A stretch of 55,773 nt of DNA from an uncultured Clostridia bacterium (GTDB lineage Bacteria; Bacillota; Clostridia; Christensenellales; Aristaeellaceae): the NCBI GenBank assembly GCA_946627565.1, contig CAMOVR010000007.1, positions 1 through 55,773 of the forward strand, in the 5' to 3' direction. Position numbers and translations under genes: made by a program. Of the stretch, positions 38,409 through 55,773 are shown piece after piece (within the stretch, counting starts at the first letter, position 1; every line of letters starts with the position of its first letter). The notes beneath the pieces were generated by a model that did not search any database, had not been told where the DNA came from, and was given only the letters and a program-made list of their open reading frames with translations.

Positions 38409-40358
38409 TTATATCTCCGGCACAAGCCGGACCACCAGAAGGCTCCACGGCGGCAGTTCCACACTGCCTGTCCCGTTTTCTGTCCGGATGCTGATCTCCT
38501 CCGGCGCCACCTTTTCCGGTTTTGCGAAGGAATTCACGTGATTCTTTTCCCCGCTGAGCATCAGGCCCTTCCCGGACATGTTTCCGGAAAACGCTGTCTG
38601 AATGGTCAGAGGGACAGTGTTTTCAGAGAGGTTCACCACCTTCACCTGAATTTCCTCCCCGCTTCCCGTCACCGACTGGAACAGGTCCCCGTCACAGGCG
38701 CTTTCCAGCAGCACGTCTCCCCTGTGTTCCGAGAAAAGTTTCTGCACATAGTAGCTGGGGGTACCAAAAACGGAATCATCGTCAAACCAGATCAGGTCGG
38801 GCGTCCAGTCCACGCTGCCCTCCCTGGCCAGCAGCGGTGCATAGCAGCTCATCACCACAACATCGCTGTTTTTTTCCAGTCCCGTCATATACGCGGCCTC
38901 GCACAGGGCTGCATACAGCGTCCCGGGCCTGCGGTTTCCCTGAACCGGTTCATGGGCGGCAAACTCGCCCAGAAACACCTTTGTGGTTCTGGGATAATTG
39001 TCATAGCGCTGAACATGGGACGGGAACCAGCTGCTGTCCATATAGTAGTGCTCGTCCACCAGATCCTCCGGAAAGAACCTGCGGATCTGTGCCCAGCTGT
39101 CCCGGATCAGATTTCCCTCCGCCACCGGACCTGCGGCCACGATGCAGGTGATATACGGATAGACCTCCTTCACCCTGTCTGAGAGCACCTCATACCGGGA
39201 AAAATAGGCGCTGCCCCAGTTTTCATTGCCTATGGCCACAAACCGGAGATCAAAGGGCTGCGGATGCCCCATGGATGCCCGCACGCTTCCCCAGGCTGTA
39301 TCCTTATCCCCTGTGGCAAACTCGATCAGGTCCAGGATATCCTGCGCATAAGCCTTTGTCTCATCCATGGTCAGGGGCGGGTCCTTCACATCCCTTGCCT
39401 GACACAGCAGGCCTGCATGGACCACCGGCACCGGCAGTGCCCCAAGTTCCTCACACAGGCAGAAATACTCATAGAATCCCACGCCCATGGTCTGCATGCC
39501 GCCCCAGGTATTGGCAATCTCCCGGCGCTTCTCCACGCTGCCCACCGACTGTTTCCAGTCATAGGCGTTTTCCCGCACATAGGTGCCTTCCACCACGCAG
39601 CCGCCCGGGAAACGCAGAAAAGAGGGATGGAGACTTGAAAGCATATCAAACAGGTCCTGCCTTATGCCCCCGCCGGGCCAGTCCTTTCCCACACGGCGGG
39701 ACGGCATGAGGGATACCATATCGATATCTACCGCGCCCTTCCCTGCCGCGGTCACGGCAAGCACAGCCCCCGCGGACTCGCTGGCGGTGATGACGGCCTC
39801 AACCTTTCTCCATTCTTCCGTGACGCTGAACACGGGGGCTTCCGTACACAGGCTGTTGCCCGCCACATCCCGCAGTGCCACTTCCACGGCCGCTTCCTGA
39901 GCAGCCTCCTCATCTCCCCGCACCCACAGGGACACGTCATACGATTCCCCCTGGGTAACGGCGATGCCGCCCCGCAGGGCGTTGCCGCCAAAGCCCTGGT
40001 TCTGAAGCCGCATCAGGCCTCCGCTTTCCAGCTCCACATGAAGGTACGTGGGGTTGTTTTCATGAATCGGTGAAATATCTTCCAGAACCGCCGTGGCATT
40101 TTTCTGCAGGCCGGTCCGCCATGCCTCCCAGTGGTCTGCATGGCCGGGGTTCCACAGGTTCTGGTTTTCAAAGGATCGGTTCCTTAAAAGTTCCGCATAC
40201 AGTCCCCCGTCCACCGCACAGTTGATGTCCTCAAGAAACAGTCCGTACAGGGTGGGGCTGACCGGATGCACGGCCTCACTGCCGATTATGAGTGTTTCAC
40301 CCGCGGAAAGAACCGGAAGCAGCATCAGCACCAGCATCACTGCCAGAAGTCGTTTCAC
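38409..40358 (-). CDS. Exported GH51 alpha-L-arabinofuranosidase
   Basis: 649 aa. The best start is GTG at 40358 (AAAGGAG nine bases before), giving a clean signal peptide MKRLLAVMLVLMLLPVLSAG. GH51 hallmarks: YGLFLEDINCAVDGGLYAEL near the N-terminus, acid/base Glu379 in IGNENWGS and nucleophile Glu465 in FLGEFAAHE; the C-terminal beta-sandwich (NLSENTVPL) follows. Residues about 85-225 look like an inserted carbohydrate-binding module of the CBM4/9 kind. It removes arabinose side chains from arabinan or arabinoxylan. Most GH51 enzymes are cytoplasmic, so export is notable. The start lies inside the upstream regulator gene (62-base overlap). Confidence 0.9.
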   Translation of the reverse strand: MKRLLAVMLVLMLLPVLSAGETLIIGSEAVHPVSPTLYGLFLEDINCAVDGGLYAELLRNRSFENQNLWNPGHADHWEAWRTGLQKNATAVLEDISPIHENNPTYLHVELESGGLMRLQNQGFGGNALRGGIAVTQGESYDVSLWVRGDEEAAQEAAVEVALRDVAGNSLCTEAPVFSVTEEWRKVEAVITASESAGAVLAVTAAGKGAVDIDMVSLMPSRRVGKDWPGGGIRQDLFDMLSSLHPSFLRFPGGCVVEGTYVRENAYDWKQSVGSVEKRREIANTWGGMQTMGVGFYEYFCLCEELGALPVPVVHAGLLCQARDVKDPPLTMDETKAYAQDILDLIEFATGDKDTAWGSVRASMGHPQPFDLRFVAIGNENWGSAYFSRYEVLSDRVKEVYPYITCIVAAGPVAEGNLIRDSWAQIRRFFPEDLVDEHYYMDSSWFPSHVQRYDNYPRTTKVFLGEFAAHEPVQGNRRPGTLYAALCEAAYMTGLEKNSDVVVMSCYAPLLAREGSVDWTPDLIWFDDDSVFGTPSYYVQKLFSEHRGDVLLESACDGDLFQSVTGSGEEIQVKVVNLSENTVPLTIQTAFSGNMSGKGLMLSGEKNHVNSFAKPEKVAPEEISIRTENGTGSVELPPWSLLVVRLVPEI

Positions 40359-41277
40359 CGCTGTCATCTCCTTTGTAATGCATGCGCATCCTGATATCCT
40401 GGGGATAGTTGCCAAAACCCTGGCCGAACAGCGTTACACCGCCCACATGACCCGCTGTATCGGGCACCTCGATGCGGAAAGCGATGGCCCTTCCTGCTCT
40501 GATATGGACATCCCGTATGGTCACATTGCTGATGCGCCCGCCGTCCATGAAGGTACCCTGGTCATTGATGGACAGCAGTTTGTACAGTCCATGCTGATTC
40601 CAGTTGGGGAACCACCAGGGCGGATTATAGATGCCCGGAATCCTTCCGAAATCCCCTGGGCTGGTCCAGAAACCCAGATGCACACCATTGAGGCTGAAGT
40701 GCACATCACTGGGCCAGTTTTCCTGCACGCCCGGCGCTTCTGAGGACAGTTCCATGGAGATCTGGAGTTCCAGCGGAATCTGTCCTTCCTTCAGGAAGCA
40801 GGGCAGCATATATTCCACATAGCCGGATGAGAACCAGAGTATTTTGGCATTGGTCCTCTCCATATCCGCAAAAACGGAGGGTACATCCACTTTGCCGATG
40901 ATATGTTCCGGCGTACACAGACCGCATGTGGGCTTCACCTCATAGTTTGTGTAGGCGCCCACCCCGATCTCCGTCTCATACATATTGCCGGTCATGGAAA
41001 GTTCCGGTCCTGAAACCATCAGCCCGGAGACTTCCGCCTTGCAGATTTTAAGCGTTCCATGCCTTCCCTCCGCCATGGCAATACTGATCAGGCCGCACTC
41101 CTGCATCATACGGATGTGGGGCGTCAGTGCCCCGGGGGTTATGGCCAGCCGCTCCGAGATGGCCGTCAGGCTCATGGGGCCTTCTGTCTGAAGGAGTTCA
41201 AGAATCATGATCCGGGTTTCGGAGGACAGTGCCTTGAAGATGGGCAGACCGTCCCTGTAGGAAGGTATTTTCAGCAT
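40297..41277 (-). CDS. ArsR-type HTH regulator with a large C-terminal domain
   Basis: 326 aa, about three times a normal ArsR protein. Residues 1-75 form a winged helix: IFKALSSETRIMILELLQ, then SLTAISERLAITPGALTPHIRMMQECGLI. The remaining ~250 residues are beta-rich with tryptophan-dense text (NPPWWFPNWNQHGLYKLL), a CGLC pair and a Ser/Gly/Asp-rich tail. No metal site is evident, so it probably senses a carbohydrate or its derivative; this is inference from context. ATG at 41277 is preferred (AGAGGTG six bases before); GTG at 41286 is the alternative. It follows the binding protein terminator and overlaps the GH51 gene. Confidence 0.75.
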   Translation of the reverse strand: MLKIPSYRDGLPIFKALSSETRIMILELLQTEGPMSLTAISERLAITPGALTPHIRMMQECGLISIAMAEGRHGTLKICKAEVSGLMVSGPELSMTGNMYETEIGVGAYTNYEVKPTCGLCTPEHIIGKVDVPSVFADMERTNAKILWFSSGYVEYMLPCFLKEGQIPLELQISMELSSEAPGVQENWPSDVHFSLNGVHLGFWTSPGDFGRIPGIYNPPWWFPNWNQHGLYKLLSINDQGTFMDGGRISNVTIRDVHIRAGRAIAFRIEVPDTAGHVGGVTLFGQGFGNYPQDIRMRMHYKGDDSGETTSGSDAGADAASGSFRG

Positions 41278-41374
41278 TTTCTTCACCTCTGCTTCCGCCC
41301 TTTTATTCGGGGCGGAGAATGGGATTCCCGCACAAACCCGGCAGTGCCTGCAGCAGGCAGCTTAAAAATCAACA

Positions 41375-41411
41375 GGGAGCGCCGGGTGAAATACATCAGC
41401 CCGGCGCTCCC
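41375..41411 (-). terminator. Hairpin after the second binding protein gene
   Basis: Perfect 12-bp stem GGGAGCGCCGGG / CCCGGCGCTCCC with a 13-base loop; on the minus strand followed by TGTTGATTTTTAAG. It separates the importer operon from the regulator-GH51 pair. Confidence 0.85.
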
Positions 41412-41431
41412 CTGCTTACTTGGTGTGCGAC

Positions 41432-42835
41432 TTACTCACCGTACACGCTGTAGAAAACTTTCATGGCGTCCTCATAATAGGAACGTCCGGCTGCATTCAG
41501 ACTGTCGGTGTAGTCATAGGGATCGATGGCGCCGGCATTGATAGCCGCTTCGATTCCGGTGTAGCCGTTGTAGTCAGAGCCGTGATAATAGTCGGCGATG
41601 AAGGTGTTGAAACCAGGAATGGTTCTGCCGCCGAAGGTGACAGGGTTCTGGATGTTGGCCAGATAGCTCTCCCAGTCGTTCCAGTATCCCAGATCCGGGA
41701 ACAGGGGCACCAGGGCAGCATTGACATCATCATCCTGAACCATGGGCAGGGAACCGGGCAGACGATAGATCTTATCGCCGGCTTCGTTGGTCAGCGTTCC
41801 GTACAGTTCAGCACGGGCCAGCCAGCCTTCTTTGCCCCAGGTCAGGAACTTGGCCACTTCATAGGCCTCACGGGGATGTTCGGTGTTGGCAGCGATGGAG
41901 ACCATGTCAATCCAGCTGAACTGACCGGCTTCTTCGGTGCCCTCACCCAGGGGGCTGTTGTAGGGAACCATCTGCAGGCCGCGCTCCAGAGCAGCAGTCT
42001 GGGTATAGATGTTGTTCATGGTCCAGTAGGCGTCCATCTGCATGGCTACATGGCCGGATTCGCCGGGCCACATGTCATCGGGCACCACAGCCAGGTAGGC
42101 ATCGCTGCCCTGGATGGCCTGATAGCCCAGACGGGCATATTCGCTCTGCTTTTCAACCATTTCCACCCAGCCGGTATCGAAGTGATAGTTTTCGCCGTCC
42201 CAGCCAAATTCGCCCAGCACGTGATCGGTCAGAGCTACCGGGCCCAGGGTGACAGGTCCCATGAAGAAGTTGTATGCCCAGATGCCCTGAGCGGGATCTG
42301 TCATATTCTCAATCAGGTCCAGCATCTGTTCCCAGGTCCAGTCCTGGCTGGGCAGTTCCACGTTCAGCTTGTCAAAAACAGCCTTGTCCAGGTAGATGAC
42401 AGCGGGAAGGAATTCGCCGGGCATGAAGTAGCAACGCTTGCCGTCCACATAACCCACACGGCGCAGGGAGGGATACAGCAGGGTCTGGGCTTCTTCGTCC
42501 GCCTCAAGATAGGGGGCGATATCCAGGCACATGGGGTTGGCCATCAGGGGATCCAGGTCCAGCCAGAAGAAGACATCGGGCAGGTTGTTGTCAGCGGCCA
42601 GATTGGTCAGGGTTGCCGTGACATCCGCAGTGGTGGACTGGATGATTTCCACGGTGATGTTGGGATGCAGCTCATGGAATTTGTCAGCCAGTGCCTGGGT
42701 CAGCTCGAAATCGTCCCAGGTCAGGAAGGAGATGGTGATCTCATCGGTGGTGTTCAGCTCTTCAGCGGAAGCGAAGGAACACACGGAGAAGACCAGCACC
42801 AGAGACAGGAACAGGGATACCAGTTTCCGAGTCAT
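41432..42835 (-). CDS. Extracellular sugar-binding protein (SBP_bac_1) of the arabinan locus
   Basis: 467 aa. Signal peptide ending CSFASAEEL without a lipobox. Class 1 carbohydrate-binding body: ITISFLTWDDFELTQALADKFHELHPNITVEI at the first strand-helix, LPDVFFWLDLDPL, and the hinge text MANPMCLDIAPYLE, LNVELPSQDWTWEQMLDLI and PREAYEVAKFLTWG. It should capture an oligosaccharide released by the secreted arabinanase and hand it to the 42890-44982 permeases. GGAGG lies eight bases before the ATG. Flanked by a hairpin on either side, a layout that stabilises abundant binding protein mRNA. Confidence 0.9.
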   Translation of the reverse strand: MTRKLVSLFLSLVLVFSVCSFASAEELNTTDEITISFLTWDDFELTQALADKFHELHPNITVEIIQSTTADVTATLTNLAADNNLPDVFFWLDLDPLMANPMCLDIAPYLEADEEAQTLLYPSLRRVGYVDGKRCYFMPGEFLPAVIYLDKAVFDKLNVELPSQDWTWEQMLDLIENMTDPAQGIWAYNFFMGPVTLGPVALTDHVLGEFGWDGENYHFDTGWVEMVEKQSEYARLGYQAIQGSDAYLAVVPDDMWPGESGHVAMQMDAYWTMNNIYTQTAALERGLQMVPYNSPLGEGTEEAGQFSWIDMVSIAANTEHPREAYEVAKFLTWGKEGWLARAELYGTLTNEAGDKIYRLPGSLPMVQDDDVNAALVPLFPDLGYWNDWESYLANIQNPVTFGGRTIPGFNTFIADYYHGSDYNGYTGIEAAINAGAIDPYDYTDSLNAAGRSYYEDAMKVFYSVYGE

Positions 42836-42861
42836 AGTTCAATCCTCCATTTTTTTCTTAT

Positions 42862-42884
42862 CTTAAGCCCTTTGGGGCCTTAAG
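42862..42884 (-). other. Intercistronic hairpin before the binding protein gene
   Basis: CTTAAG-CCC / GGG-CTTAAG with one bulged C and a four-base loop between the permease stop (42890) and the binding protein start. No T tract, so it is more likely an mRNA-stabilising or processing structure than a terminator. Confidence 0.5.
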
Positions 42885-42889
42885 AACCA

Positions 42890-43879
42890 TTATTCACCGG
42901 TGATACCCGCACGGTCCACGGATTCAACGAACTGTTTCTGCAGTACGAAGTATAGCACAAGCAGAGGGGCTATGGCCAGCATGGTACCGGCCATGCGGAT
43001 GGCATCGTTGATCTTGTTGGTGGACGTGACAGAAGATGCACGGGCATCAAAGGCTGTATTGTAGGAGTCTTCGAATTTCTGCAGCTCAATCATCAGGGTG
43101 GTCAGGCCCTTGGCTCTGGTATGTCCGTATCCCAGGTACTCACGCACCAGGGTGGTCTCATTCCAGTACCACACAAAGCTGAACAGCGTTACCACCACGA
43201 TGGCTGCTGTACACAGCGGCACCGCGATGCGCCAGTATGCCTTGAAGTGGCCGGCGCCGTCGATTTCCGCCGCCTCCACCAGGGACTGGGGTGTCTGCCG
43301 GTGGAAGTTGAAGAAGATCAGGACGCACAGCACGCTCTTGAAGCCCTGGCCCAGAAGGGCGGTGATCAGGAAGGGCTTGACGGTGCCGTCTGCCAGCTTG
43401 AGCCTTGAGAAGGTCAGATAGTTGGGCAGTGACGTAACCTGGGGCGGAAGCAGGAAGGCCAGCACAAGCACAGCCATCCAGAAATTCTTAAGCGGGAACT
43501 TGTAGCGGGCAAACCCGTAACCCACCATGGAGCAGATGAACACCTGGCATACGGTAGGAATCAGGGCCAGCACCAGGTTCTTCCAGAGACTGTTCCAGTA
43601 GTCCAGGGTCAGGATGGCATCCTCATAGTTCTTCCAGGTGATGGCTGAGGGCAGCCACTTGGCGGAAGAGTCCAGCAGGTCGCTGCGGTTCATGAGGGAG
43701 CGGGAGAACATGTAGAGCACAGGATAGAGATAGATAAAGGCGATGGTGATGAGAAGCACATAGATCACAATGCTCATGAGCAGACCACGGCGGTCAGCGC
43801 TTCCCAGCATGCGCTTTTTGAATCTCTCTTTTCGGATTTCTTTTCTCTTGGCCTTCTGCAGGGCTTCGTTTTCACTCAT
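42890..43879 (-). CDS. Carbohydrate ABC transporter permease, MalG type
   Basis: 329 aa, six-helix CUT1 permease. An extended polar N-terminus (EALQKAKRKEIRKERFKKRMLG) precedes the first helix. The ATPase-coupling EAA loop is EAAEIDGAGHFKAYWRIAVP, and the large loop between helices 1 and 2 carries WLPSAITWKNYEDAI. The ATG overlaps the stop of the MalF-type partner (ATGA). Near the end is a ~40-residue insert (KFEDSYNTAFDARASSVTST) in the last external loop. Forms the channel with the 43876-44982 product. Confidence 0.9.
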   Translation of the reverse strand: MSENEALQKAKRKEIRKERFKKRMLGSADRRGLLMSIVIYVLLITIAFIYLYPVLYMFSRSLMNRSDLLDSSAKWLPSAITWKNYEDAILTLDYWNSLWKNLVLALIPTVCQVFICSMVGYGFARYKFPLKNFWMAVLVLAFLLPPQVTSLPNYLTFSRLKLADGTVKPFLITALLGQGFKSVLCVLIFFNFHRQTPQSLVEAAEIDGAGHFKAYWRIAVPLCTAAIVVVTLFSFVWYWNETTLVREYLGYGHTRAKGLTTLMIELQKFEDSYNTAFDARASSVTSTNKINDAIRMAGTMLAIAPLLVLYFVLQKQFVESVDRAGITGE

Positions 43880-44982
43880 GCCGTCTTCCTCCTTCCCATC
43901 ATTTTGCTCAGTTTCTTACTCTGGGCAGCACGTGCACGGCCTTCCATATCCTGACGGAACACGTCCTTGCTCTTCTTTTCCTTCTTTTCACGTACAATCA
44001 GGAAAGTGATGAGCAGCAGGATCGCTACAACCAGCGTGTACAGCCAGGTCATAGCCGCACCGTAGGAGTAGCCCTTGGTGACCGCGTAGGTGGCGTTGTA
44101 GATCAGGTCGATAATGGGGTTGGTGCTGTTGGTGGCCAGGGTGACCACGGTGTAGATGGAGTTGAGCAGGATCATGGACCTTAAGCTGGGCAGGGTAATC
44201 TTCCAGAAGGTTTCCCAGCCGGAGGCACCGTCGATCTTGGCAGCCTCATACATGGCGGTGGGCACTTTCTGCAGGCCTGCCAGGAAGATCAGGATCTGGA
44301 TACCGGAATTCCACAGAATCAGGATCAGCTGCGAGAACAGATCCATGATGGGCTGTGAAATGAATTCCGGGAAATCCGCCAGAATGACTGCCATGGTATT
44401 CTGGTTCACCATGGGAACCGAGGATACGCCCTGGGCGGTAAGCTGGCTCATAACAGGGCCCGTAGCGATGATAACCGGCAGGAAGAAGATGGTGCGGAAC
44501 ACGCCGCGGCCTTTAATCTTCCCGTTGAGCATCAGGGCGATGATCAGGGAGAAGGCGATGATGATGGGCAGCTGCAGCACAAGAGATACTGCAAAGTTCC
44601 CCAGGGTCACCGGGAAGTTGAGTTCCTTGTTGAAAACAGATACATAGTTGGCCAGGGGGGTATACACCGTGTTGCCGGCTTCGTCCACCCCGGTCAGCGG
44701 CGTAAGCTGCAGACCGCTGTCCAGCTTCAGGTTGTAGAAGGAGTACAGCAGGGAATTGGCCACGCCGCCCAGGAAGAAGATGCAGATACCCACCATCCAG
44801 GGCATGATGAAGAAGTAACCCCACAGGGTGTCCCGGGCGCTTCTGCGCACCGGCTTGCCCTGCCTGTAGCGGACCAGCGTCACAATGAGGGTGATCAGAA
44901 GGGCCGCCAATACCCCGAACAGGAGGACATAGGGAAGGTATTCCAGCATGGGCAGCAGTTTTTCATAAATCCAGTTTCCCAT
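43876..44982 (-). CDS. Carbohydrate ABC transporter permease, MalF type
   Basis: 368 aa. Starts MGNWIYEKLLPMLEYLP at 44982, its ATG overlapping the stop of the DUF5696 gene by one base. An extra N-terminal helix and linker with RQGKPVRRSARDTL precede the usual six helices. EAA loop EAAKIDGASGWETFWKITLP. The long polar C-terminal tail (KKEKKSKDVFRQDM...) is lysine-rich. It partners the MalG-type protein and the 467-aa binding protein. No ATPase gene is in the operon, so a shared MsmK/MsmX-type ATPase encoded elsewhere is expected. Confidence 0.9.
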   Translation of the reverse strand: MGNWIYEKLLPMLEYLPYVLLFGVLAALLITLIVTLVRYRQGKPVRRSARDTLWGYFFIMPWMVGICIFFLGGVANSLLYSFYNLKLDSGLQLTPLTGVDEAGNTVYTPLANYVSVFNKELNFPVTLGNFAVSLVLQLPIIIAFSLIIALMLNGKIKGRGVFRTIFFLPVIIATGPVMSQLTAQGVSSVPMVNQNTMAVILADFPEFISQPIMDLFSQLILILWNSGIQILIFLAGLQKVPTAMYEAAKIDGASGWETFWKITLPSLRSMILLNSIYTVVTLATNSTNPIIDLIYNATYAVTKGYSYGAAMTWLYTLVVAILLLITFLIVREKKEKKSKDVFRQDMEGRARAAQSKKLSKMMGRRKTA

Positions 44983-47162
44983 TAATCTTGCACCACCTTC
45001 CATGACATGGGTTCAATCGTCTCACCGTCAAGGGATGCGTCCTTTTCGCCATAGTTCAGGTATACCCTGATGCCGTTGTTCCAGGTAACCTTTGTGATGT
45101 CGCCGTGGATTTCATGTCCCACAATGGCAGCACCGTCGATTTTTTCGTGCAGGGTCTTCAGGTCACGGTACCAGGTGGCGATGGTGACGCGGTACAGATC
45201 CCAGCGGGAGGAGAAGATATCGGAGGAATTGGTATTCTGCAGCGCGATGGGATCCTCCATGGTAATGAGGAAGCAGGGACGGGTACCCTGTTCCACAAGG
45301 CGCAGGAAGAAGCGTCTGGCGTTCGCCTGGAAGTTCACATACTCAATGTAGGCGGGCATCTTTCCCGAGATGGCAATGGCCAGAAGCGGGATATCATCGG
45401 ATACATAGGCGTAATCCGAACCCGTCACGGGAAGATCACTCAGCGCATGGGCATAAGGCCACAGGTAGGCGTTTGCCGACTCCAGAATGGTCCGGTATTC
45501 CCCGGCAGCGGTCTGTGCAATCTGTTCATACCTGTTTGCCAGTTCCCCGGATTCCACATAGTGGCCGGACTCATAGGCATCAGCCATCAGCTGGGTGATG
45601 CCGGTCAGAGCCACACCGCTGACTTTGGAAGCCTTCATGGCCTGAAGGGTACTGCGGGCCATGTCCAGGCTGCGGGAAGGCGTCAGGTAGTACTGGGTGG
45701 CATACACAGGTCCGAAGGTGGGTGCGCTCCAGGTCTGGCTGGTGATTTTCTTGAATGCGGAATAGGTCAGGGTGGGATGGGTATCCGTATTCAGACGCAG
45801 GAAATCCGCTTCAAGTGCAAGATCGATATTGCCAAGACCGGATGCCTTGTTCACCAGGGCTTCCAATCCGCCGGCTCCGCCAAGGGCACCAGTGGGAGAA
45901 TAACCGTCGGTGGGAACAGCACCGGTAAGGCCGCCGTTCTGCCAGCCGCGGTATACAGCGGAAATCCTGTCCACGCCGTCGGTCTTGAGCCACTCCAGGA
46001 TGCTGCCAGCCTGCTCAAAGCTGGTCATGACCACATCGGAAGTGCCCACCACGGAGTTTTCCTTCTCCATGCCCAGGAAATCGATTTCCACGTCGAAGGG
46101 CCTGTCGGATTCGGCATTCTTAAAGAATCCCTTCTCCTCCATGTAATCCCGCCAGGCGCAGGCCAGGCCGGCATAGTTTGCCTCGTCCTCATCCGTCAGC
46201 AGGAAATGCTGGATGATATCAAAGGACCTGGCGTTTTCCGTCAGCATATCCACAGCGCCGGAGGAAGGACCGGTGGGCTGCTTGTACACAAAACGGTAGG
46301 TGTACTTGGCGCTGACCCAGTCAAAGCTCATGTTGTTGGCACCGTTGGGATAGGCACGGATGCGGGCAGCGTTATCGCCTTCCTCAATCACACCCAGGAA
46401 ACCGATGCGGTCCGCGGTATGCACCATACCGAAAACCGGCATGATAATGGGTTCGGTGGAAACGGTCCACTTGGAATTGACGGTATCTTCCACGCCGATG
46501 TTGGTGCCGTAAACCGGACGGTCAAAGGGCGAGGAGTAGCGCTTTTCATTGTCCTTCAGTTCAATGAGGGCGCCCTGTCCGTCGGGGATGATCATGTATC
46601 CTTCATCCTGGCCCATAATGCTGTGGCCCAGGAAGGGATACAGGGTAAAGGTAGAAACTGTATAGCGCTTGCCGTCAATCTCACTGTTGTGGATGCCGGA
46701 CTGGGGAATCTTCACCGTGATGCCGCTTTCGTCCAGCGTCACCTCTGCGGTATAGCCGACGCCATATTCCGGGAAGGTGACATCTGCTGTAAAGCCGTTG
46801 TCCAGGTATTTCAGGCTGATCTCATTTTTCATGTTGACCAGGTCAGCCTGGGTATTGGTACTCTTTACATCCTCGATGAATTCCATCACGATGCCGCTCT
46901 GGTAGAATCCCTTCCAGGCAGCCTGATCCTTGAAGTCATCCGGGTTCTGAACGGTGGAATAGAGCACGGAACCGTTGGCCTTGCTCTCCACAATAATCGC
47001 CAGTGTCGATTCTTTCAGGTACATCCGGAAGCGGCTGGATTCGGCGCACAGCACATAATCATCCGGAATGGCGGACCCGGCCGCCTCCTCCGCCATGACA
47101 GCAGGGAGTAGGAGCAGCAACAGCGACAGCAGCAAAATCAAGCATTTAGACTTTCCTGACAA
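44982..47162 (-). CDS. Exported DUF5696 family protein
   Basis: 726 aa. Signal peptide with a leucine run (CLILLLSLLLLLLPAVMAEE). Start is TTG at 47162, nine bases after GAGAGGTGG and inside the end of the upstream gene (17-base overlap). The N-terminal ~300 residues are beta-rich (SSRFRMYLKESTLAIIVESKANG, GYMIIPDGQGALIEL); the middle (about 370-640) alternates strand and helix in a TIM-barrel-like manner (DRISAVYRGWQNGG, NIDLALEADFLRL, YVSDDIPLLAIAISG); a short beta tail closes it. The pattern matches DUF5696, a family found with sugar importers; a distant glycosidase-like fold is plausible but no catalytic pair can be named. It may bind or process the imported glycan at the membrane. Confidence 0.7.
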   Translation of the reverse strand: MSGKSKCLILLLSLLLLLLPAVMAEEAAGSAIPDDYVLCAESSRFRMYLKESTLAIIVESKANGSVLYSTVQNPDDFKDQAAWKGFYQSGIVMEFIEDVKSTNTQADLVNMKNEISLKYLDNGFTADVTFPEYGVGYTAEVTLDESGITVKIPQSGIHNSEIDGKRYTVSTFTLYPFLGHSIMGQDEGYMIIPDGQGALIELKDNEKRYSSPFDRPVYGTNIGVEDTVNSKWTVSTEPIIMPVFGMVHTADRIGFLGVIEEGDNAARIRAYPNGANNMSFDWVSAKYTYRFVYKQPTGPSSGAVDMLTENARSFDIIQHFLLTDEDEANYAGLACAWRDYMEEKGFFKNAESDRPFDVEIDFLGMEKENSVVGTSDVVMTSFEQAGSILEWLKTDGVDRISAVYRGWQNGGLTGAVPTDGYSPTGALGGAGGLEALVNKASGLGNIDLALEADFLRLNTDTHPTLTYSAFKKITSQTWSAPTFGPVYATQYYLTPSRSLDMARSTLQAMKASKVSGVALTGITQLMADAYESGHYVESGELANRYEQIAQTAAGEYRTILESANAYLWPYAHALSDLPVTGSDYAYVSDDIPLLAIAISGKMPAYIEYVNFQANARRFFLRLVEQGTRPCFLITMEDPIALQNTNSSDIFSSRWDLYRVTIATWYRDLKTLHEKIDGAAIVGHEIHGDITKVTWNNGIRVYLNYGEKDASLDGETIEPMSWKVVQD

Positions 47163-49188
47163 ATCGATACACCACCTCTCCGTAGATGGAGGATACGAAA
47201 TCCACCAGCTGGCCGATCAGGACATACACCACAAACAGCAGTGCCACCGTAACGAGCACGGTAAACAGGGTGACGATGATGATGCCCAGGGTCTTTTTCA
47301 TGGAATAGTCGTTGAGATACATCAGTTCCAGGATAATGAGCACCGCGGTGAAGCCGTAGGCCACCACGTCCACCAGCGTAAGGAAGAAATCCTCGTTGAA
47401 GGTGAGTACGTTGCTCAGAAGCAGCCGGATGGGCAGGGCAATAATCATGGGGGTCAGCGCGGCAGCACTGCCGATGAAGATATCCCTGAACCGGGCTTCG
47501 CCTTCCTGGATGGTACACACCAGGTAGCAGCAGATGGTCAGCAGCAGGAATGCGCCGAAGGTCATCACCGCATCCCGCAGCAGCTCATACTCGCCCTCCT
47601 GCACCGTCTTAAAGAGGAAGCCGGAGAAATACTTGTTGACTACCTGCAGGATGAAGAAGATCACCACAACGCAGACAGCTGCCGGGATGGAGGAGCGCTT
47701 CTCCCGCTTGATGCCGTAGCAGCAGTCAAAGGGGTTGCGCATCATGGTAAAGCACCAGCCGACTTTCTTCAGGAACCCGATGTCCCCGATCTTTCCCTTC
47801 ACGGTGCGGACTGGCGCCAGGAAATGTGTCTTGCGGTCGATGATGCCTGCGATCTTGAGGACAACGGCGATGCCGATGATCCACAGCAGGATGACGCCCA
47901 GGTTCCTGTGCAGCCAGTCGCTGCGCAGTTCCCAGAAGGCGTCGGAATAGCCTTTCCGGTTGCCTCCGTTGCGGAAGGAAGACAGGGCCAGATCGAAGTT
48001 GCCTTCGCGGTACAGGGCTTCGCCAAGACCGGTGGAAGCATAGGTAAACAGGGAGTTCATGCGCAGGACTTCCGTCCACGGAACCTTGGACTCAGCATAC
48101 TTGCCGTCCTGGAACAGGGTGAATGCCTGATGCACCAGGTCCGTAAATTCCGTAGCAGCCAGCACCTGAACGCTGTTGAGGATCTCGTCCAGAACGAAGA
48201 CATTGTATTCGTCCGTTACCACCAGGCCTGTGACGGACTTGAAGGTACCCACCCGCTGGTCGCCGGTATCGGTGGCGCCAAACAGGAACAGGGTGGAGCC
48301 TTCGGAAGTGTACTCCATGATGTTGCCGTCCTTGCTGGCGGTGAAAATGGAGCCGTGGCTGTTGACGGACACCGCTGTGGTGCGTTCCACATTGTAGTCC
48401 GGGGTCAGGGTGTTGCTGCCGGCCACGTTCAGACGTCTCAGGGCTGCGTTTTCCGCCTCGGAGACGGTGTACACCATGCCCTTTTCGTCAATGGCCAGGT
48501 TCTTTACGGATGTGGGCACCACGTCCGCCTGCATCTTCAGCTGTTCTTCGCTGAGGATCCTGCGGCGGATGGCGGTAAGCCAGTTGACCCGGCTCTGGTT
48601 GGCACCGTAGTAGCCCAGGAATTCGCCGTCACCCACAGGGCTGAGCTGCACAATACCGTTGGTATTGCCGACGCTTGCGATGTACAGGTTGCCGCGCTTG
48701 TCCAGCACCAGCTTGTTGGGCTTGAAGGCGGCGTTTTCACCGAACAGGGGCGTATTGGTGGGCCTGGTGTATTCCCGGATTACTTCGCCTTCCGGGCTGA
48801 ACACCACCACAGCCCTTCCCTTTTCGTCAGCTACAAACACATTCAGATCGTCGTCCACGAAGACACCCTGTGCGGATTTCAGCGTCTTCTTGTCGCCGAT
48901 TGCCTTGACGAAATCACCGCTCTGGGTAATCACCAGAATCCGGTTGTTGCCGTCGTCGGCGATGTAGAGGTTGCCGTCGGGACCCAGGCGCATATCCGCC
49001 GGGTTCTTCAGGGTTTCTTCCCCAAACCTTGTCATGGTCCGGACAGGTTCATACGCTGCCTGGGTCTGCACCAGATCGCCGTCCACACCCAGGGTAAAGG
49101 TGCGGTAGGGCACTGAGGCAGAAGCAGCCGTGCACAGCAGGACCAGTGCCAGCGTCAGGAGAAGGAGGGACCGTGTTCTTTTCAGCAT
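47146..49188 (-). CDS. Membrane protein with exported NHL-type propeller, TPR-like and Yip1 domains
   Basis: 680 aa. Signal peptide (about 1-24), then repeated NHL/SMP-30-like blades (residues about 55-345; motifs DGNLYIADDGNNRILV, RGNLYIASVG, KGMVYTVSEAENAALRRL, HGSIFTASKDGNIMEY). A TPR-like pair of helices follows (about 355-425: AFTLFQDGKYAESKVPW, GLGEALYREGNFDLALSSFR), then a membrane helix (about 436-455), and a Yip1-type multi-helix domain to the end (about 490-675) containing RNPFDCCYGIKRE. AAGGAGGAGAAG precedes the ATG. It sits between the two importer permease pairs in a tightly packed operon. Function unknown; a membrane scaffold linking extracellular sugar capture to the permeases is speculation. 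Confidence 0.75.
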   Translation of the reverse strand: MLKRTRSLLLLTLALVLLCTAASASVPYRTFTLGVDGDLVQTQAAYEPVRTMTRFGEETLKNPADMRLGPDGNLYIADDGNNRILVITQSGDFVKAIGDKKTLKSAQGVFVDDDLNVFVADEKGRAVVVFSPEGEVIREYTRPTNTPLFGENAAFKPNKLVLDKRGNLYIASVGNTNGIVQLSPVGDGEFLGYYGANQSRVNWLTAIRRRILSEEQLKMQADVVPTSVKNLAIDEKGMVYTVSEAENAALRRLNVAGSNTLTPDYNVERTTAVSVNSHGSIFTASKDGNIMEYTSEGSTLFLFGATDTGDQRVGTFKSVTGLVVTDEYNVFVLDEILNSVQVLAATEFTDLVHQAFTLFQDGKYAESKVPWTEVLRMNSLFTYASTGLGEALYREGNFDLALSSFRNGGNRKGYSDAFWELRSDWLHRNLGVILLWIIGIAVVLKIAGIIDRKTHFLAPVRTVKGKIGDIGFLKKVGWCFTMMRNPFDCCYGIKREKRSSIPAAVCVVVIFFILQVVNKYFSGFLFKTVQEGEYELLRDAVMTFGAFLLLTICCYLVCTIQEGEARFRDIFIGSAAALTPMIIALPIRLLLSNVLTFNEDFFLTLVDVVAYGFTAVLIILELMYLNDYSMKKTLGIIIVTLFTVLVTVALLFVVYVLIGQLVDFVSSIYGEVVYRFVRKV

Positions 49189-49200
49189 GTCTTCTCCTCC

Positions 49201-50067
49201 TTACTTGATGCCGGAATAGGCCATGGTATTCATCACGCTGGACTGCATGACGATGAACAGAAGCAGATTGGGCACAAACATGATCAGGGCAGCTGCGGCA
49301 GCCATGCCCTGGCCCTGCACCGTGCCGACGCTGGTGAGGGTGTTCATGTAGAAGGGCAGGGTGCGGATGCCTTCGGAGGACGTGAACAGGTTGGAGGTTT
49401 CCACATTGGTCCACACACTCTGGAACGCCAGGATGGCGCCGGTGGCAATGGCAGGCTTGGTCAGGGGGATGATGATCTTCCGGTAAATCGTGAAGGCGCT
49501 GGCCCCCTCCAGCTGCGCTGCCTCAATGAGGGAATTGGGCACCCCGTCTATGAACTGTTTGATCAGGAACAGACACACCGGCATGGCGATCAATGGCAGG
49601 ATGTGCGCCAGATACGTGTCCAGAATGCCTAGGGCGTTGATGGTCAGGTAACGCGGAATCGTCACGGCGGTTGCCACGAACATCAGGGCGATGTTGTTGA
49701 CCTCAAACACCGGACCCTTGAGCTTGAAGTTCATCTTGGAAAGGGCAAAGCCGGCCATGGTGGAGATCACAATGGAGAGGAAGACCACCCCGAGGGTTAC
49801 GATGAGGGAGTTGAAAATGTAACGGGAAATCGGGATGGATGAATCCGCCGTGGTCTGGAACAGGTTCCGGAAATTCTCCAGGGACGGATGCGAAACAAAG
49901 AATCTTGGCGGGAAAGCGAACAGCTCGTCCATGGGCTTGAATGCGTGATTGATGATGTACACAATGGGCGCACCCATGAAGATCGCAATGGGAACCAGGT
50001 ACAGATACAGTGGTATCTGATTTTTGTGGAACTTCTTCGGGTTGACTTTTGTACCGCCTACAGCCAT
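49201..50067 (-). CDS. Carbohydrate ABC transporter permease, MalG type (second system)
   Basis: 288 aa CUT1 permease. GGAGGTG lies before the ATG. EAA loop EAAQLEGASAFTIYRKIIIP; the loop after helix 1 carries FAFPPRFFVSHPSLENFRNLF, typical of MalG proteins. It follows the MalF-type gene by 16 bases and precedes the NHL-Yip1 gene by 12. It differs clearly from the 42890-43879 permease (shorter, different loops), so this is a second transporter rather than a recent duplicate. Confidence 0.9.
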   Translation of the reverse strand: MAVGGTKVNPKKFHKNQIPLYLYLVPIAIFMGAPIVYIINHAFKPMDELFAFPPRFFVSHPSLENFRNLFQTTADSSIPISRYIFNSLIVTLGVVFLSIVISTMAGFALSKMNFKLKGPVFEVNNIALMFVATAVTIPRYLTINALGILDTYLAHILPLIAMPVCLFLIKQFIDGVPNSLIEAAQLEGASAFTIYRKIIIPLTKPAIATGAILAFQSVWTNVETSNLFTSSEGIRTLPFYMNTLTSVGTVQGQGMAAAAALIMFVPNLLLFIVMQSSVMNTMAYSGIK

Positions 50068-50083
50068 GTTTTACACCTCCTTA

Positions 50084-50971
50084 TTACTCATCCTTCGAGC
50101 TGAACAGCTTGCGGGCAATAAACGAGAACGCGTAGATGAGGCCCAGAAGGGATACGGACACCGCAGCGGCATAACCCATCTCATAGCGGGTAAAGCCATA
50201 GTCGTCGATGTGGTTCACCATCAGCTGGGCAGCGTACTGCGGCGTGGGGTTGGAACCGGTCAGCATCACGCCGATATTGCCTGCCTGGAAAGCGCTCACA
50301 ACAGCCATAACTGCACCGAAGAGCATCTGGGGCTTCATGGAGGGGATCGTGATATAGAACACTTCCTGTACCCGGTTGCGGATGCCGTCGATGGCGCCGG
50401 CTTCGTACAGCTCGGCATTGATGTTCAGAAGGCCTGCCAGCATGGCCAGGAAGCCCACGCCCATGCTGCTCCACAGGGCCACGATGATGACGATGGGCAT
50501 GATGTAGTTGGTGTTCAGCATCCAGACAATGGGTTCGGTTATGATGCCCAGCTGGGTCAGGGCGTAGTTGGCGATACCGCTCTGGTCACCCAGGAACACC
50601 ACGCGCCACATAACGGTCATGGCAACACCCATGGTCATGGAGGGAGAATAGATGATCAGGGCCAGAATCGTGCGGGGAAGCCGTGTCAGCTGGCTCAGGG
50701 ACCATGCCAGGAAGAATGCCAGCAGATAGCCCACGGGACCCACGATCACGGCAAAGAGGATCGTGTTGGGCAGGACATACTGCAGGAAGATGGTATCCTG
50801 GGTCAGGAGGTTGATGTAGTTCGTCAGTCCCACAAACTGCGGCGTCTGAACTGCATTATAGTTGGTGAATGACAGCCCTATGGCCATGATGGTGGGAATG
50901 ATGATGAAGATCACAAACAGGATCAGATAGGGAGCCAGGAACAGGTAGGGCGTGCTCTTCTTCGTTCTCAC
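50084..50971 (-). CDS. Carbohydrate ABC transporter permease, MalF type (second system)
   Basis: 295 aa. Starts [22 protein letters not shown], the standard first helix of CUT1 permeases. EAA-like loop [21 protein letters not shown]. The ATG overlaps the stop of the 956-aa binding protein (ATGA), tying permease synthesis to that protein. Pairs with the 49201-50067 product. Confidence 0.9.
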
Positions 50972-53838
50972 TCTTGTCCCTCCTTTTGGCTGGATGCGGC
51001 AGCATCAATGTATTTCTGCACCACGTCCACGGTCGGTGTGGGGAATTCCTTCAGCATTTCCCCGTCTTTGTAATATCCGAATTCTTCCAGTTTCCGGTAG
51101 GTCTCACGGTTGATGCGCTTGACGGCCGTATCCAGGGCGCGCCGTGCATCCACGCCGTCCACCACCACGGAGATGAAGGCGTTGGAAAGCTCGCGTTCCA
51201 GCATGTAGGTGCCCAGCACCCAGGGAGCTTCCGTCATCCATTTCATCTGTTCCATGATGATCTTCTTGTGGGCGCTCTTAAGCGGCAGGGTGGCAAAGGC
51301 CTCCGTGTTGGCTGTGGGCCAGATGTATTCTGAACCGTAGGTGCTCTGCAGGAGAGAGCCAAAGGTTGCCTGTACCTCGCTGCTGCTCCACCACTTGAGG
51401 AATTCCCAGGCCTGGTCCGGTTTGTCCGTCTGGCTCAGGATCGCCATGGTTTCAGCGCCGCCTGTGGTCCAGCGGGCCACGGTGCCGTCTTCCTGCTCAA
51501 GGCCCGGGAACACGGCGATATCCCAGAGGGAATCCAGCTCGGGGGCTGCGTTGAGCAGAAGGTTGTAGGTGGACAGGTCCGCAATGCCAATGGGGAGTGT
51601 GCCGTCGCGGAACTGCTGATAGAATCCGGGGGAAGGAACATCCGTGGGCATGTTGTAGACGGTGAAAAGTTCCGTCATTTCCCTGAAGCCCTTCAGGGAT
51701 TCTTCACTGTCCAGCGTGGTATCGCCGATGGTATCCGCATAGATGGATCCGCCGGACTGGAGAATCAGGGGCAGTGTGCCGGGGAAAACCTTCATGCCGC
51801 CCATACCGGCGGTGGGGAAATAGAAGTTCATGTTTCTTCTCTGCAGCTCGGGCAGGATGAGCTTGACCTCTTCCATGCTGTTGGGAACAGAGATGGACAG
51901 GGCATCCAGAATGTCCTTGCGGTAGAACATGACCCAGAAGTTGACGGTCTCAGGCATGGCGTACACACCATCGCCCAGGATATAGGGGATGAACAGACCG
52001 GAGGAGAAGCGACTTGCCACCTCGCCGAAATCTTCAAACTGGGTCAGGTCGTAGAGGGCGCCGCGGATGTTGAGGTAGCTGGGCACCACGTACTGGAGGC
52101 TCAGCACCACGTCCGGCGCGGTTCCGGCTGCATTGGCCAGCACCAGCTTGTTGGCATCGGGCATCAGGGAAATGTCCACATGGATGCCGGTGGCGGGTGT
52201 GAACTCGGTATCAATCAGGTTCTGCACCAGCTCCACGTACTGGCGGCTTCTGCCCATCCAGACCTGCAGATGGGTCTTGTCGCCGCTGCCGGCAGCGTAG
52301 TCCTGGCTGGAGAAGGATGTGGTAAACCTCTCCACGCTCTTGCTGACGTTTTCCATGAATCCGGGACGCTCCGGCAGTTTGGCGCTGTCCTGGTAGAAAA
52401 TGATCTGGTCAATATCCAGATTGTGGTTTGCCATGTCCTGCAGCTGCTGAGCCAGCATCCTGGAGGCGGAGTTGGAACCGGTGGAAAGCTCGGACAGACG
52501 CCTGGGCAGATCCTCAGGCTTCAGGGCAAGGCGGTGCAGCTGGTCTGCGCACAGCGTCAGGCTTGAAAATGCACTGCCGGACCCGATGGAAGAAAACTGC
52601 TTGATGTATTCCACCGCTTCTGCGCAGTCATCGCCCCAGCTGTTGAGCCGCTCTTCAATGTCCGGGATGTATTCCCGTACGTTGTAGCTCCTGTACTGGT
52701 CCGCTGTGCCGCCGGAGAGGCGGGTGATTTCCAGGCTCAGGCTGTTGATCTCGCTTAAGACCCTGTCGATCATCTCATAAACCGGTGTCAGCAGGGCTCC
52801 GTTGATCTTCAGTGTCAGGGTATGGCTGCCCTTGGTCAGATGGAATGTCTGCTTATCCTGGCTCCCGGCAGTGACCGGTACGGTCTTGTCCAGGAATCCG
52901 GTGCTGTAGTCCATATGCACAAGCTTTGCAGCCTCGGAGGGGATTTCACCGTCGATATACAGGTCCAGGAAGACCGGGAAGTCCACCTTGACGCTCTGAC
53001 GGTAGTGGAAGTCCAGGTTGTACCAGCCGTCTTCCGGCACTTCAAAGGCGTAGCTCACAGCATCTCCTGCGGTGTCAAAGGATGCACCGCTCAGGTGGTT
53101 GAGCACCCGGTTGACGGTGCTGTAGGGGGTAAGAACCGCATTGAACTCGCCGGCACTGCGGATGGACGACTTGCTGCGGCTCTGAATCGCCTCACCCTCA
53201 ATAATGACGATGTTGCTGCCCGCTGCCACCTGGCCATCATAGGCCGGAACCACCTTGGGCGCCTTCAGTGTCACAGCGCTGATATGTGCTCCGCTGTCCT
53301 GTGTTTCAAAGGATATGGTGTGCTCCCCTGCCGTAAGGGCAAACAGGAAAGGCACATCAATCCGGCCGGTGGAATCCGTCAGGCCTGTTTCCTGCTCCAC
53401 ATCAGCGGAAAAAGGCGTCGGGGCAATCTCGTTGCCGTAACGGTCCACAGGGGCCGGGCCTCCGTCTGTCACCCACAGGGATGTCAGCTTGACCCTCCTC
53501 AGTTCATAAAAAGGAATCTCGCCGTCCACCCGTACAATCATTTCCGTGGGCAGGGTGGAGTCCGTGGCGTTTTTGTACGTCACCCAGACCTCATACTGTC
53601 CGTCCTCCGGCACGGAAATGTCTGCCTGCACCGTTTCACCAAGGGCGGCATTGAGGTCCGTGGGTACACGGATCTCTTCACCTCCGTAAACCGGTAATGT
53701 ACAGGCGGCAAGTACGGCGGAGTACAGCGGCTCCGTCCTTCCCATTTTCAGGCTTTCTTCTGCCGTGGCCAGTTCTGTCGGCAGGATGCAGGAAACCAGC
53801 ATTACCAGCAGCGACAGCCAAACCATTCCTCTGCGCAT
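50968..53838 (-). CDS. Very large extracellular solute-binding protein with N-terminal jelly-roll modules
   Basis: 956 aa, twice the size of a normal sugar-binding protein. ATG at 53838 (GGGAGG eight bases upstream). The signal peptide contains LVSC, a possible lipobox, followed by an alternative AxA site (ELATAEE). Two beta-sandwich modules of carbohydrate-binding type come first (about 50-200, [19 protein letters not shown]; and about 210-355, [17 protein letters not shown]), then a helical linker (about 360-500), then an SBP_bac_1 body (about 520-860; [58 protein letters not shown]) and a helical tail. The paired modules may hold polymer near the cell while the body binds oligosaccharide. 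Eight bases separate it from the arabinanase stop codon region. Confidence 0.85.
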
Positions 53839-53855
53839 CAAACGCACCTCCCATC

Positions 53856-55277
53856 TCAGTCCAGATCCTCATAGCGTATGCCCCAGACAGCCTCTCCGGC
53901 TTCGTTCAGGGCTGAAAAACAGGAAACCCAGGCATTCTGCGCACCATCCATGCCCTTCAGGAAGCGGCCGGTGTACGTTTCCTCCCCTATCTTAAGGCGT
54001 ACCAGATCCCCGTCGCTCTCCCAGGTGCCGGTGTATCCTCCTTCAATCCTGCCGTCCTCAGTGAGGGAGCAGAATTCAGAAACATGTTCCACGGCATTGA
54101 TGTCATGGCCATGCAGCAGAACCTTGTATTTTCCGGGCCGGTCCGTTTCTTCGGGAGCTTCCGTGCCTTCCCCGGCGTACCGCAGGGGGGACACCACCGG
54201 CCAGCCCTCTTCATTCATGTACATCTGATGGACCCGCACCGTGAAGCTCTCGCCGCTGGCGGCAAAACGGGTGTGGAAAATCAGGAAGTACTGGCCCGTC
54301 TCCGCGTCATACCAGGCACTGTTGTGTCCCGGAGACCGGTAAGCCGTTGCAGCCCGGCTCGTATCGCTTTCCGCCGCTGCGAACTTATAGCCCCCCATGA
54401 GCTTGACACCGTAGCCCTCATAGTCCACATCGTGGAAAAAGGTTCCGGCCGCCCCGCCGCAGCGGATCATCTCCTGGCCTGCACTGTCGTAGAAGGGGCC
54501 GTCCGGATTCTCGCTGCGGCATACCCTGATGTTGTACCCTCCGTTGCTGTCCAGCCCGCCAAAGGAGAGGAACAGGTAATAGTATTCCGTCTCAGGGCTG
54601 TAGAGCATGTACGGGCCTTCGATGCGGGCGTGGTTCTTGCCAAGCAGCTTCGTGCCGTACCCTTCTTCCAGGGGAAGACCCGTGGCAGGGTCCAGTTCCA
54701 GAATGAAGATTCCTCCGGAATAGCTTCCGTATACCATCCAGAGGCGTCCTTCCCTGTCCGTAAACACGCAGGGGTCCACCACATTGGGATAATAGGTGGC
54801 GTTGTACCCTGCCATACCGCTTTTCAGCAGGATCCCCTGGTCCACATAGGGACCCTCGGGGCTGTCCGCCACAGCCAGACCCAGCGCGGACAGAGGGCTG
54901 CTGCCCTCGCAGGTGCAGTAGTACAGCGCAAAACGGCCGTCAGGGAGCTGCTGTACATCGGGCGCCCAGAATGTCTTGGTTTTTGCCCAGCTCAGTGCTT
55001 CCTTCATCTGTTCCTGCACATTTTCCACCAGGGTGCACCCTGCGCCGGCGTCCTTGCTGATCATGGTCCAGTTGATAAGATCGTCGGACTTTGCGGCGGC
55101 CATGTGACTGCCGAAAATGTAAAATGTGCCGTCCTCTGTGCGGATGACTGACGGGTCATGAACAGATACACTCTTAAACTTCATGGGCGACACCGGTTCC
55201 TCCGCATATACTGTTCCGGTAAGTACCAGCAGCAGCAACAGGTTCAGACATACGAAACGGGTCCACACGCGGCTCAC
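53856..55277 (-). CDS. Secreted GH43 endo-alpha-1,5-L-arabinanase-like enzyme
   Basis: 473 aa from GTG at 55277; the ATG at 55334 would lie almost at the transcription start without a ribosome site, and GTG at 55268 is another option. Signal peptide SRVWTRFVCLNLLLLLVLTG, cleavage near VYAEE. The five-bladed GH43 domain shows the three catalytic acids: Asp41 in SVHDPSVI, Asp168 in NVVDPCVF and Glu220 in ARIEGPYML. A C-terminal beta-barrel (about 385-473; GYTGTWESDGDLVRLKIGEETYTGRF) resembles the extra domain of extracellular endo-arabinanases such as AbnB. It cuts arabinan into oligosaccharides for the importers encoded downstream. First gene of the operon, directly under its promoter. Confidence 0.88.
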   Translation of the reverse strand: MSRVWTRFVCLNLLLLLVLTGTVYAEEPVSPMKFKSVSVHDPSVIRTEDGTFYIFGSHMAAAKSDDLINWTMISKDAGAGCTLVENVQEQMKEALSWAKTKTFWAPDVQQLPDGRFALYYCTCEGSSPLSALGLAVADSPEGPYVDQGILLKSGMAGYNATYYPNVVDPCVFTDREGRLWMVYGSYSGGIFILELDPATGLPLEEGYGTKLLGKNHARIEGPYMLYSPETEYYYLFLSFGGLDSNGGYNIRVCRSENPDGPFYDSAGQEMIRCGGAAGTFFHDVDYEGYGVKLMGGYKFAAAESDTSRAATAYRSPGHNSAWYDAETGQYFLIFHTRFAASGESFTVRVHQMYMNEEGWPVVSPLRYAGEGTEAPEETDRPGKYKVLLHGHDINAVEHVSEFCSLTEDGRIEGGYTGTWESDGDLVRLKIGEETYTGRFLKGMDGAQNAWVSCFSALNEAGEAVWGIRYEDLD

Positions 55278-55348
55278 TTCTTTCTTGTCCCGGAGTTTTG
55301 CTTTATTTTGGATATTCACAAAATAATTAACCATTTTCTATAGCAAAC

Positions 55349-55377
55349 ATCATATGCTTCTTTTTATGCTTTGTCAA
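55349..55377 (-). promoter_or_regulatory. Promoter of the arabinan utilisation operon
   Basis: Consensus TTGACA (55372-55377), a 17-base spacer and TATGAT (55349-55354) on the minus strand. Start is near 55342, giving a ~65-base leader to the GTG at 55277. It is the only clear promoter for the genes from 55277 to 41432. Confidence 0.88.
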
Positions 55378-55746: not shown

Positions 55747-55773
55747 ACCGCTGTCAGTCATTTTGACAGCGGT
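55747..55773 (-). terminator. Terminator of a minus-strand gene beyond the window
   Basis: ACCGCTGTCA / TGACAGCGGT stem with a seven-base loop, followed on the minus strand by TTTTTCT. The gene it ends lies past position 55773. Confidence 0.85.

Follow-up and report, generated by a model that had tools for sequence, protein, structure and literature searches.

Why should an operon for arabinan use carry two complete permease pairs, neither with an ATPase gene, around two uncharacterised proteins? The question is raised by a 55,773-nucleotide stretch of DNA from an uncultured Clostridia bacterium (contig CAMOVR010000007.1), the whole of which we call the window. Its minus strand holds a nine-gene operon encoding, in order, a GH43 (glycoside hydrolase family 43) arabinanase, a large solute-binding protein (SBPbig), the permeases F1 and G1 (pair 1), an NHL-TPR-Yip1 protein, a DUF5696 protein, the permeases F2 and G2 (pair 2) and a second solute-binding protein (SBP2). 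We find the locus to be one copy of an eight-gene module that is conserved: SBPbig, F1, G1, NHL-TPR-Yip1 (as one gene or two), DUF5696, F2 and G2, to which a second binding protein is often added. At slightly better than even confidence, we take the module to be a cell-surface glycan-capture platform feeding two CUT1-type ATP-binding cassette (ABC) importers. Here it is fitted with arabinan enzymes; it is likely a general platform of Gram-positive-type bacteria.

The conservation of the locus was assessed in DUF5696 loci drawn from the window genome, 60 genomes of its family and 398 of its phylum, together with seven named loci. DUF5696 was matched in 38 of the family genomes, in 36 above the cut-off, and in 52 of the phylum genomes, in 43 above the cut-off and in 41 at full length. 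The draw gave 123 loci with a strong match, all selected by DUF5696: 57 from the window family, 6 from near relatives by similarity and 60 from the wider phylum draw. One locus, L012, duplicates L063 and is not included in the locus counts, and full-length matches in three genomes of a genus already represented (G246, G354 and G373) lie outside the set. Among the 100 fully assessed loci, which extend at least 7.3 kb upstream and at least 2 kb downstream, 90 hold all seven partners of DUF5696. NHL, Yip1 and F2 are present in all 100, G2 in 99 (absent from L138), F1 in 93, and G1 and SBPbig in 92 each; L053, which is without G1, lies on a contig that stops 2.5 kb past DUF5696. Over all 123 loci, Yip1 is found in 121 and F2 in 120. 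Because the same eight-gene set recurs in 90 of 100 homologous loci, the cluster goes beyond chance. The preliminary description of the window had itself named homologues with a single importer pair as the adverse case, and it is the two-pair arrangement that proves usual.

Co-occurrence across genomes follows the same lines. In searches of the 398 genomes, where the best two or three candidates per genome were scored, full-length DUF5696 (E <1e-90) was found in 41 genomes from 19 families. The NHL protein of the module type (E <=1e-30) is present in each of these 41 and in no other, so that neither occurs alone. An NHL-Yip1 profile match of any strength is present in 104 genomes. The matches in the other 63 are weaker (the best is 1.2e-20, in a 284-amino-acid frame), and the listed ones span no more than a part of the propeller. 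SBPbig accompanies DUF5696 in all 41 genomes, the copy in G156 being cut by a contig end, and nine more genomes match SBPbig solely through the common binding-protein domain. The window genome (82.8% complete) encodes five copies each of full-length DUF5696, Yip1 and SBPbig, on the same five contigs.

The module proteins also share a history. The 59 loci compared, each encoding all eight proteins, come from the window family (51) and from four other genomes (8). For paralogues we used 45 modules from 16 genomes with at least two loci, giving 675 comparisons that are not independent of one another. SBPbig, F1, G1, NHL, F2 and G2 were each compared with DUF5696, and the nearest module by DUF5696 was also the nearest by the partner in between 467 (G2) and 527 (SBPbig and NHL) of the 675, where chance gives 272. 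This agreement above chance, with the conserved locus content and the co-occurrence, leads us to reject a chance gene cluster.

Arabinan as the defining substrate did not survive the comparison. Within the window genome the five copies adjoin different genes: GH43 and GH51 in the window, GH10 and a binding protein on contig C49, three GH32 proteins and a binding protein on C59, GH30 and an Ig-like protein on C69, and a BspA-type leucine-rich repeat (LRR) protein, a peptidase C69 and an upstream binding protein on C53 (locus L018), where no glycosidase was found among the neighbours scanned. The module is therefore not arabinan-specific, and we reject an arabinan-only machine. Elsewhere, a Pfam scan of 108 of 128 flanking open reading frames (ORFs) (13 shadow ORFs and seven more were left out, and ORFs above 900 amino acids excluded) returned GH43 in 16, GH10 in 5, GH51-type in 5, GH5 in 4, GH42 in 3 and GH26 in 3, with SBP_bac_1 in 23. 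The same order is seen on plasmid pNP243 of Butyrivibrio fibrisolvens D1, with GH43, SBPbig, two permeases, NHL, YIP1, DUF5696, two permeases and two binding proteins. A plasmid of Paenibacillus cellulosilyticus (L147, L148) carries ugpC, SBPbig, two permeases, a YIP1 protein, DUF5696 and two permeases. The preliminary interpretation is thus supported in part, by the usual presence of both importer pairs and the shared history of the parts; the tie to arabinan does not hold.

Both permease pairs appear to be equipped for transport. Pair 1 consists of the MalF/UgpA-like F1 (50084..50971) and the MalG/UgpE-like G1 (49201..50067), and pair 2 of the MalF-like F2 (43876..45003) and the MalG-like G2 (42890..43879), all on the minus strand and assigned by Pfam, with further models for pair 1. 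An EAA-type loop can be read in all four window permeases. By pattern search of proteins above 230 amino acids it is present in 99 of 99 F1, 93 of 96 G1, 96 of 120 F2 and 109 of 115 G2 proteins; of five F2 misses inspected, four read EVA..EGA. A degenerate second pair is rejected, since most copies of each of the four permeases have this loop. Within the window genome the F1 proteins of the five modules rank at the top of 44 matches to F1, at 624 and then 270-250 bits with the next at 113, and the five module F2 proteins at the top of 48 matches to F2, at 811 and then 147-110 bits with the next at 84; by these scores both pairs look like dedicated, module-specific lineages.

That the locus has no ATPase gene for its importers, as first described, is confirmed: no ABC ATPase was found among the ten window proteins domain-scanned, nor in the window by pattern search. 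The window genome has six matches to the MalK-type OB domain, five of them above the Pfam cut-off and none on the window contig. Across the 123 loci the ABC ATPase pattern picked out two ORFs, in L106 (on the other strand) and L083, both outside the block and more than 8 kb from the DUF5696 start. The exception is the P. cellulosilyticus copy, which is headed by its ugpC ATPase gene. In Bacillus subtilis a single ATPase, MsmX, energises six carbohydrate uptake systems (PMC12632257).

The constant protein between the pairs is NHL-TPR-Yip1 (47146..49188, minus strand, 680 amino acids), identified by Pfam NHL and Yip1 matches, Foldseek hits to NHL propellers and hydropathy. It runs from a signal peptide through a propeller at about residues 39-345, TPR-like helices at 347-408 and a membrane helix at about 432-450 to the Yip1 membrane helices, and a TPR domain appears in the precomputed annotation of some relatives. 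NHL and Yip1 are fused in 63 of the 123 loci and encoded as two adjacent proteins in 56. An AlphaFold2 model has a pLDDT of 81 and a pTM of 0.62, the latter leaving the packing of the parts uncertain. On this topology the propeller would face outside, and its constant presence suggests to us a hub role.

Cutting and binding would fall to the outer genes of the operon. The GH43 endo-arabinanase (53856..55277, minus strand, likely exported) carries Pfam GH43 and GH43_C domains; its start was taken as the GTG at 55277, the longest ORF beginning at 55334. It matches the AbnB model at E 6e-185 and 615 bits, under the curated cut-off of 750, and the endo-arabinanase structure 2x8f at E 1e-156. Both binding proteins match SBP_bac_1/8. 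SBPbig (50968..53847, minus strand) was described as 956 amino acids long, and from the GTG at 53847 it has 959; SBP_bac_8 occupies residues 547-830, and some 500 residues ahead of the solute-binding domain match no Pfam domain over the cut-off. SBP2 (41432..42835, minus strand, likely exported) has as its closest solved relative the arabino-oligosaccharide-binding protein 6rjy (E 1e-11, residues 48-184).

The slot directly after pair 2, which SBP2 fills here, was scanned in 99 of 101 ORFs, five SBPbig proteins among them: 50 match SBP_bac_1 and 32 SBP_bac_8, with overlap. At 17 further loci, several of which lie at contig ends, the slot holds no ORF of at least 250 amino acids. Binding proteins of Gram-positive bacteria are usually lipoproteins, and the window SBPbig has a lipobox-like LVSC. 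Applied to 68 ORFs of the downstream slot, which are not exclusively binding proteins, a simple rule finds 34 with signal peptides like those of signal peptidase I substrates, a departure from that design, and 12 with a lipobox-like motif. A docking partner may hold the non-lipoprotein members.

DUF5696 (44982..47162, minus strand, 726 amino acids, likely exported), left uncharacterised in the preliminary description, scores 485.8 bits against PF18952 (cut-off 25.6), and a GH129 fold is predicted across most of its length, at 13% identity. At the column of the catalytic Asp (NagBb D435, DagB D486) the window protein has Gly521, and 72 of 74 arabinan-clade sequences have glycine. The catalytic Glu column, which we take to be NagBb E478, holds glutamate in 24 of the 123 DUF5696 proteins and in 6 of the 74 from the arabinan clade; the window protein itself has E561 there, so that loss of this residue is argued from its non-conservation. 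In the arabinan clade the predicted GH129 fold would therefore lack the catalytic residues of GH129, and across DUF5696 as a whole this pair is not conserved. We reject DUF5696 as a plain GH129 member on this ground, and the protein may instead be a glycan-binding pseudo-glycosidase.

Several relatives of DUF5696 were met along the way. The sixth, partial DUF5696 match of the window genome is a NagBb-like GH129 protein on contig C33 (L021:8668-10503, minus strand; 5wzn at E 5e-160) with its catalytic columns kept, which in Pfam matches DUF5696 better than GH101 or GH129; the Pfam model therefore blurs likely active and pseudo members. A genome search with PF11308 gave no match anywhere and is uninformative, as this protein is present there, and the VIA rows ranked below GH129 and GH101 were mostly GH13-type barrels and were not used. 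A short DUF5696-like group (L074, L075, L076, L077 and L078; 561-612 amino acids) has no N-terminal part and retains the Asp and Glu columns. Its loci give no SBPbig, NHL or Yip1 match, L076 and L078 having an ordinary permease pair, and by sequence it is likely an uncharacterised active group related to GH129/GH101. Two unannotated faecal scaffolds labelled Bacteriophage sp. (MT835587.1 and MT835600.1), possibly mislabelled bacterial DNA, also encode DUF5696 relatives.

Taken as a capture platform, the locus would work as follows. GH43 would cut arabinan outside the cell, and SBPbig and the pseudo-glycosidase DUF5696 would hold the chain at the membrane. NHL-TPR-Yip1 would be the membrane hub that keeps the exported proteins beside the pores. 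SBPbig would serve F1/G1 and SBP2 would serve F2/G2, so that two classes of fragment are imported, with both pores driven by a common MalK/MsmX-type ATPase encoded elsewhere in the genome. The holding, hub and handover steps, and the pairing of binding proteins with pores, are our proposals. More tentatively still, and at clearly less than even confidence, the eight proteins may form one composite receptor-importer of Bacillota, in which DUF5696 and SBPbig hold the polymer, the NHL-TPR-Yip1 hub anchors these two at the membrane and two coupled ABC pores take up the fragments. If so, Gram-positive-type bacteria would have a swappable glycan machine comparable to Sus, of which the window genome carries five copies.

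A number of observations weigh against a single glycan platform. Seven of the 100 loci hold pair 2 only, and L097, which is without SBPbig and has weak F1 and G1 matches (169 and 181 bits), perhaps from another importer, is a possible eighth. Four SBPbig-F1-G1 loci, all in one family, have no DUF5696 within the 19-20 kb read. In the downstream slot 17 to 49 of the 99 ORFs match neither binding-protein family, so SBP2 is not constant, and the F2 of L018, among the five pattern misses inspected, has no EAA-type motif. Behind the P. cellulosilyticus module lie genes for four flavin oxidoreductases of the LLM class, one NADPH-dependent oxidoreductase and two binding proteins rather than for glycosidases, which suggests that the cargo is not always glycan. 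Two features of DUF5696 belong here too: the catalytic Asp is kept in 61 of 123 proteins, so that some outside the arabinan clade may be enzymes, and E451, E624 and D637 are invariant in the 74 arabinan-clade sequences, so that another catalytic pair is possible. That the parts form one physical machine, a Sus-like complex, is our inference.

The pair-2-only and separate pair 1 loci are what would be expected of two ordinary CUT1 importers, for instance for long and short oligosaccharides, that are merely co-regulated, NHL-Yip1 and DUF5696 being accessories of pair 2 only. NHL, Yip1 and DUF5696 do stay with F2 in 100 of 100 loci, and the SBPbig block lies upstream in 82 of the 90 complete loci and downstream in 8. 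Genomes with pair-2-only loci also hold SBPbig elsewhere (G117, for example, has four SBPbig and 10 DUF5696 matches); pair 1 is therefore not strictly tied to pair 2. Yet nine loci in ten keep both blocks together and their paralogue histories agree above chance, and full-length SBPbig was found beyond the 41 DUF5696 genomes in two only (G157 and G199), where the contigs, 3.8 and 4.3 kb long, stop within F1. We therefore regard two independent importers as rather unlikely.

The conserved acidic residues of DUF5696 could instead mark an active glycosidase of a new GH129-related family, placed at the pore mouth and using catalytic residues other than those of GH129. A GH129 fold over most of the length, the three residues invariant in the arabinan clade and the Asp kept in about half of the proteins would all fit. 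DagB, moreover, already differs at one of the two NagBb catalytic residues (PMC5698469). But across the 123 aligned members (an alignment that includes the duplicate L012 and not the fragment L055) no acidic position is fully conserved and a consistent Asp/Glu pair is not seen, and the window protein has glycine at the catalytic Asp column; an enzyme here seems to us as doubtful as two ordinary importers. A sensor, in which NHL-Yip1 and DUF5696 report external glycan via the transporters to a regulator, is very improbable: a winged-helix regulator gene does follow the operon in the window and a histidine kinase gene lies upstream on the opposite strand in B. fibrisolvens, but relatives of the window regulator (10 matches, in 10 of the loci covered by a search for this regulator type only) fall outside the constant set, and the two permease pairs, most copies of which have EAA-type loops, point to transport.

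Returning to the operon that carries the proposed platform, all nine ORFs and families of the preliminary description are present on the minus strand. The intergenic gaps from GH43 to SBP2 are 8, -4, 16, 12, -17, -22, -4 and 54 bases, so the close packing claimed for nearly every junction (overlap or a gap under 20) holds for seven of eight, each an overlap or a gap of at most 16 bases, and fails at SBP2. For the single promoter, a promoter-like site (TTGACA-17-TATGAT, 55349..55377, minus strand) does lie upstream with 11 of 12 consensus matches; it is a pattern match, the best of 8 sites in a scan where shuffled sequence gives 8.7, so that the number of sites is at chance. After SBP2 we identified a predicted intrinsic terminator that the preliminary description did not mention (41373..41413, minus strand), a GC-rich hairpin of 13 unbroken pairs with a T-rich tail behind it, within a stretch (41355-41425) that folds at -35.9 kcal/mol (z -4.7). 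A standard scan (loops of 3-8 bases) missed it and a looser one recovers it. Because two weaker stems inside genes, at 49314 (G1) and 43225 (G2), also pass the looser scan, a single transcript and the limits of the operon are predictions from the promoter and terminator patterns. At the window edge (55747-55773, minus strand) a terminator-like hairpin upstream of the operon promoter may end a preceding unit.

Beyond the terminator lie the winged-helix regulator, ArsR/MarR-like with a helix-turn-helix by domain scan (40297..41286, minus strand), and a GH51-type alpha-L-arabinofuranosidase with a CBM_4_9 domain (38409..40415, minus strand; Pfam ASD1_dom and Alpha-L-AF_C), likely exported. UxuA and a mannitol-dehydrogenase-type protein are also encoded downstream.

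DUF5696 is not mentioned in the literature searched, whose scope excludes most subscription papers and all bioRxiv preprints, and searches with YIP1, NHL and permease terms gave no account of the module among the matches listed. These proteins are encoded in roughly a tenth of the genomes sampled from the window's phylum (41 of 398), frequently more than once per genome; those relatives that have names belong to Bacillota, and B. fibrisolvens D1 is a named strain with the module on record. Should the module act as a single platform, it would reveal how large glycans and the pieces cut from them stay at the cell surface in bacteria that have no outer membrane, assign a role to two uncharacterised families, DUF5696 and NHL-Yip1, and provide a marker gene for new glycan-use loci.

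Among known systems, the CUT1 importer AraNPQ-MsmX of B. subtilis resembles the module in its MalF/MalG-type pair with EAA-type loops, its binding protein and an ATPase gene located elsewhere, and the SBP2 of the module resembles the arabino-oligosaccharide-binding protein 6rjy of such systems. The module differs in its two dedicated pairs per operon, its 959-amino-acid binding protein and the constant NHL-TPR-Yip1 and DUF5696. With GH129 and GH129-like enzymes (NagBb 5wzn, DagB 5opq/8rzk) DUF5696 shares its predicted overall fold, whereas it departs from them in its catalytic columns, its low identity and its near-constant company of Yip1 and F2. The Sus loci of Bacteroidota offer an analogy, combining surface capture, cutting and import in one operon that is reused with different enzymes. 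In contrast to these, the module would transport through ABC permeases, and no SusC porin or SusD domain was found in the ten window proteins scanned. Also comparable are the Gram-positive polysaccharide utilisation loci (gpPULs) of Bacillota, which, like the module, group an ABC importer, glycosidases and a regulator; their usual design has one importer, whereas the module has two, together with a membrane-linked pair of uncharacterised proteins.

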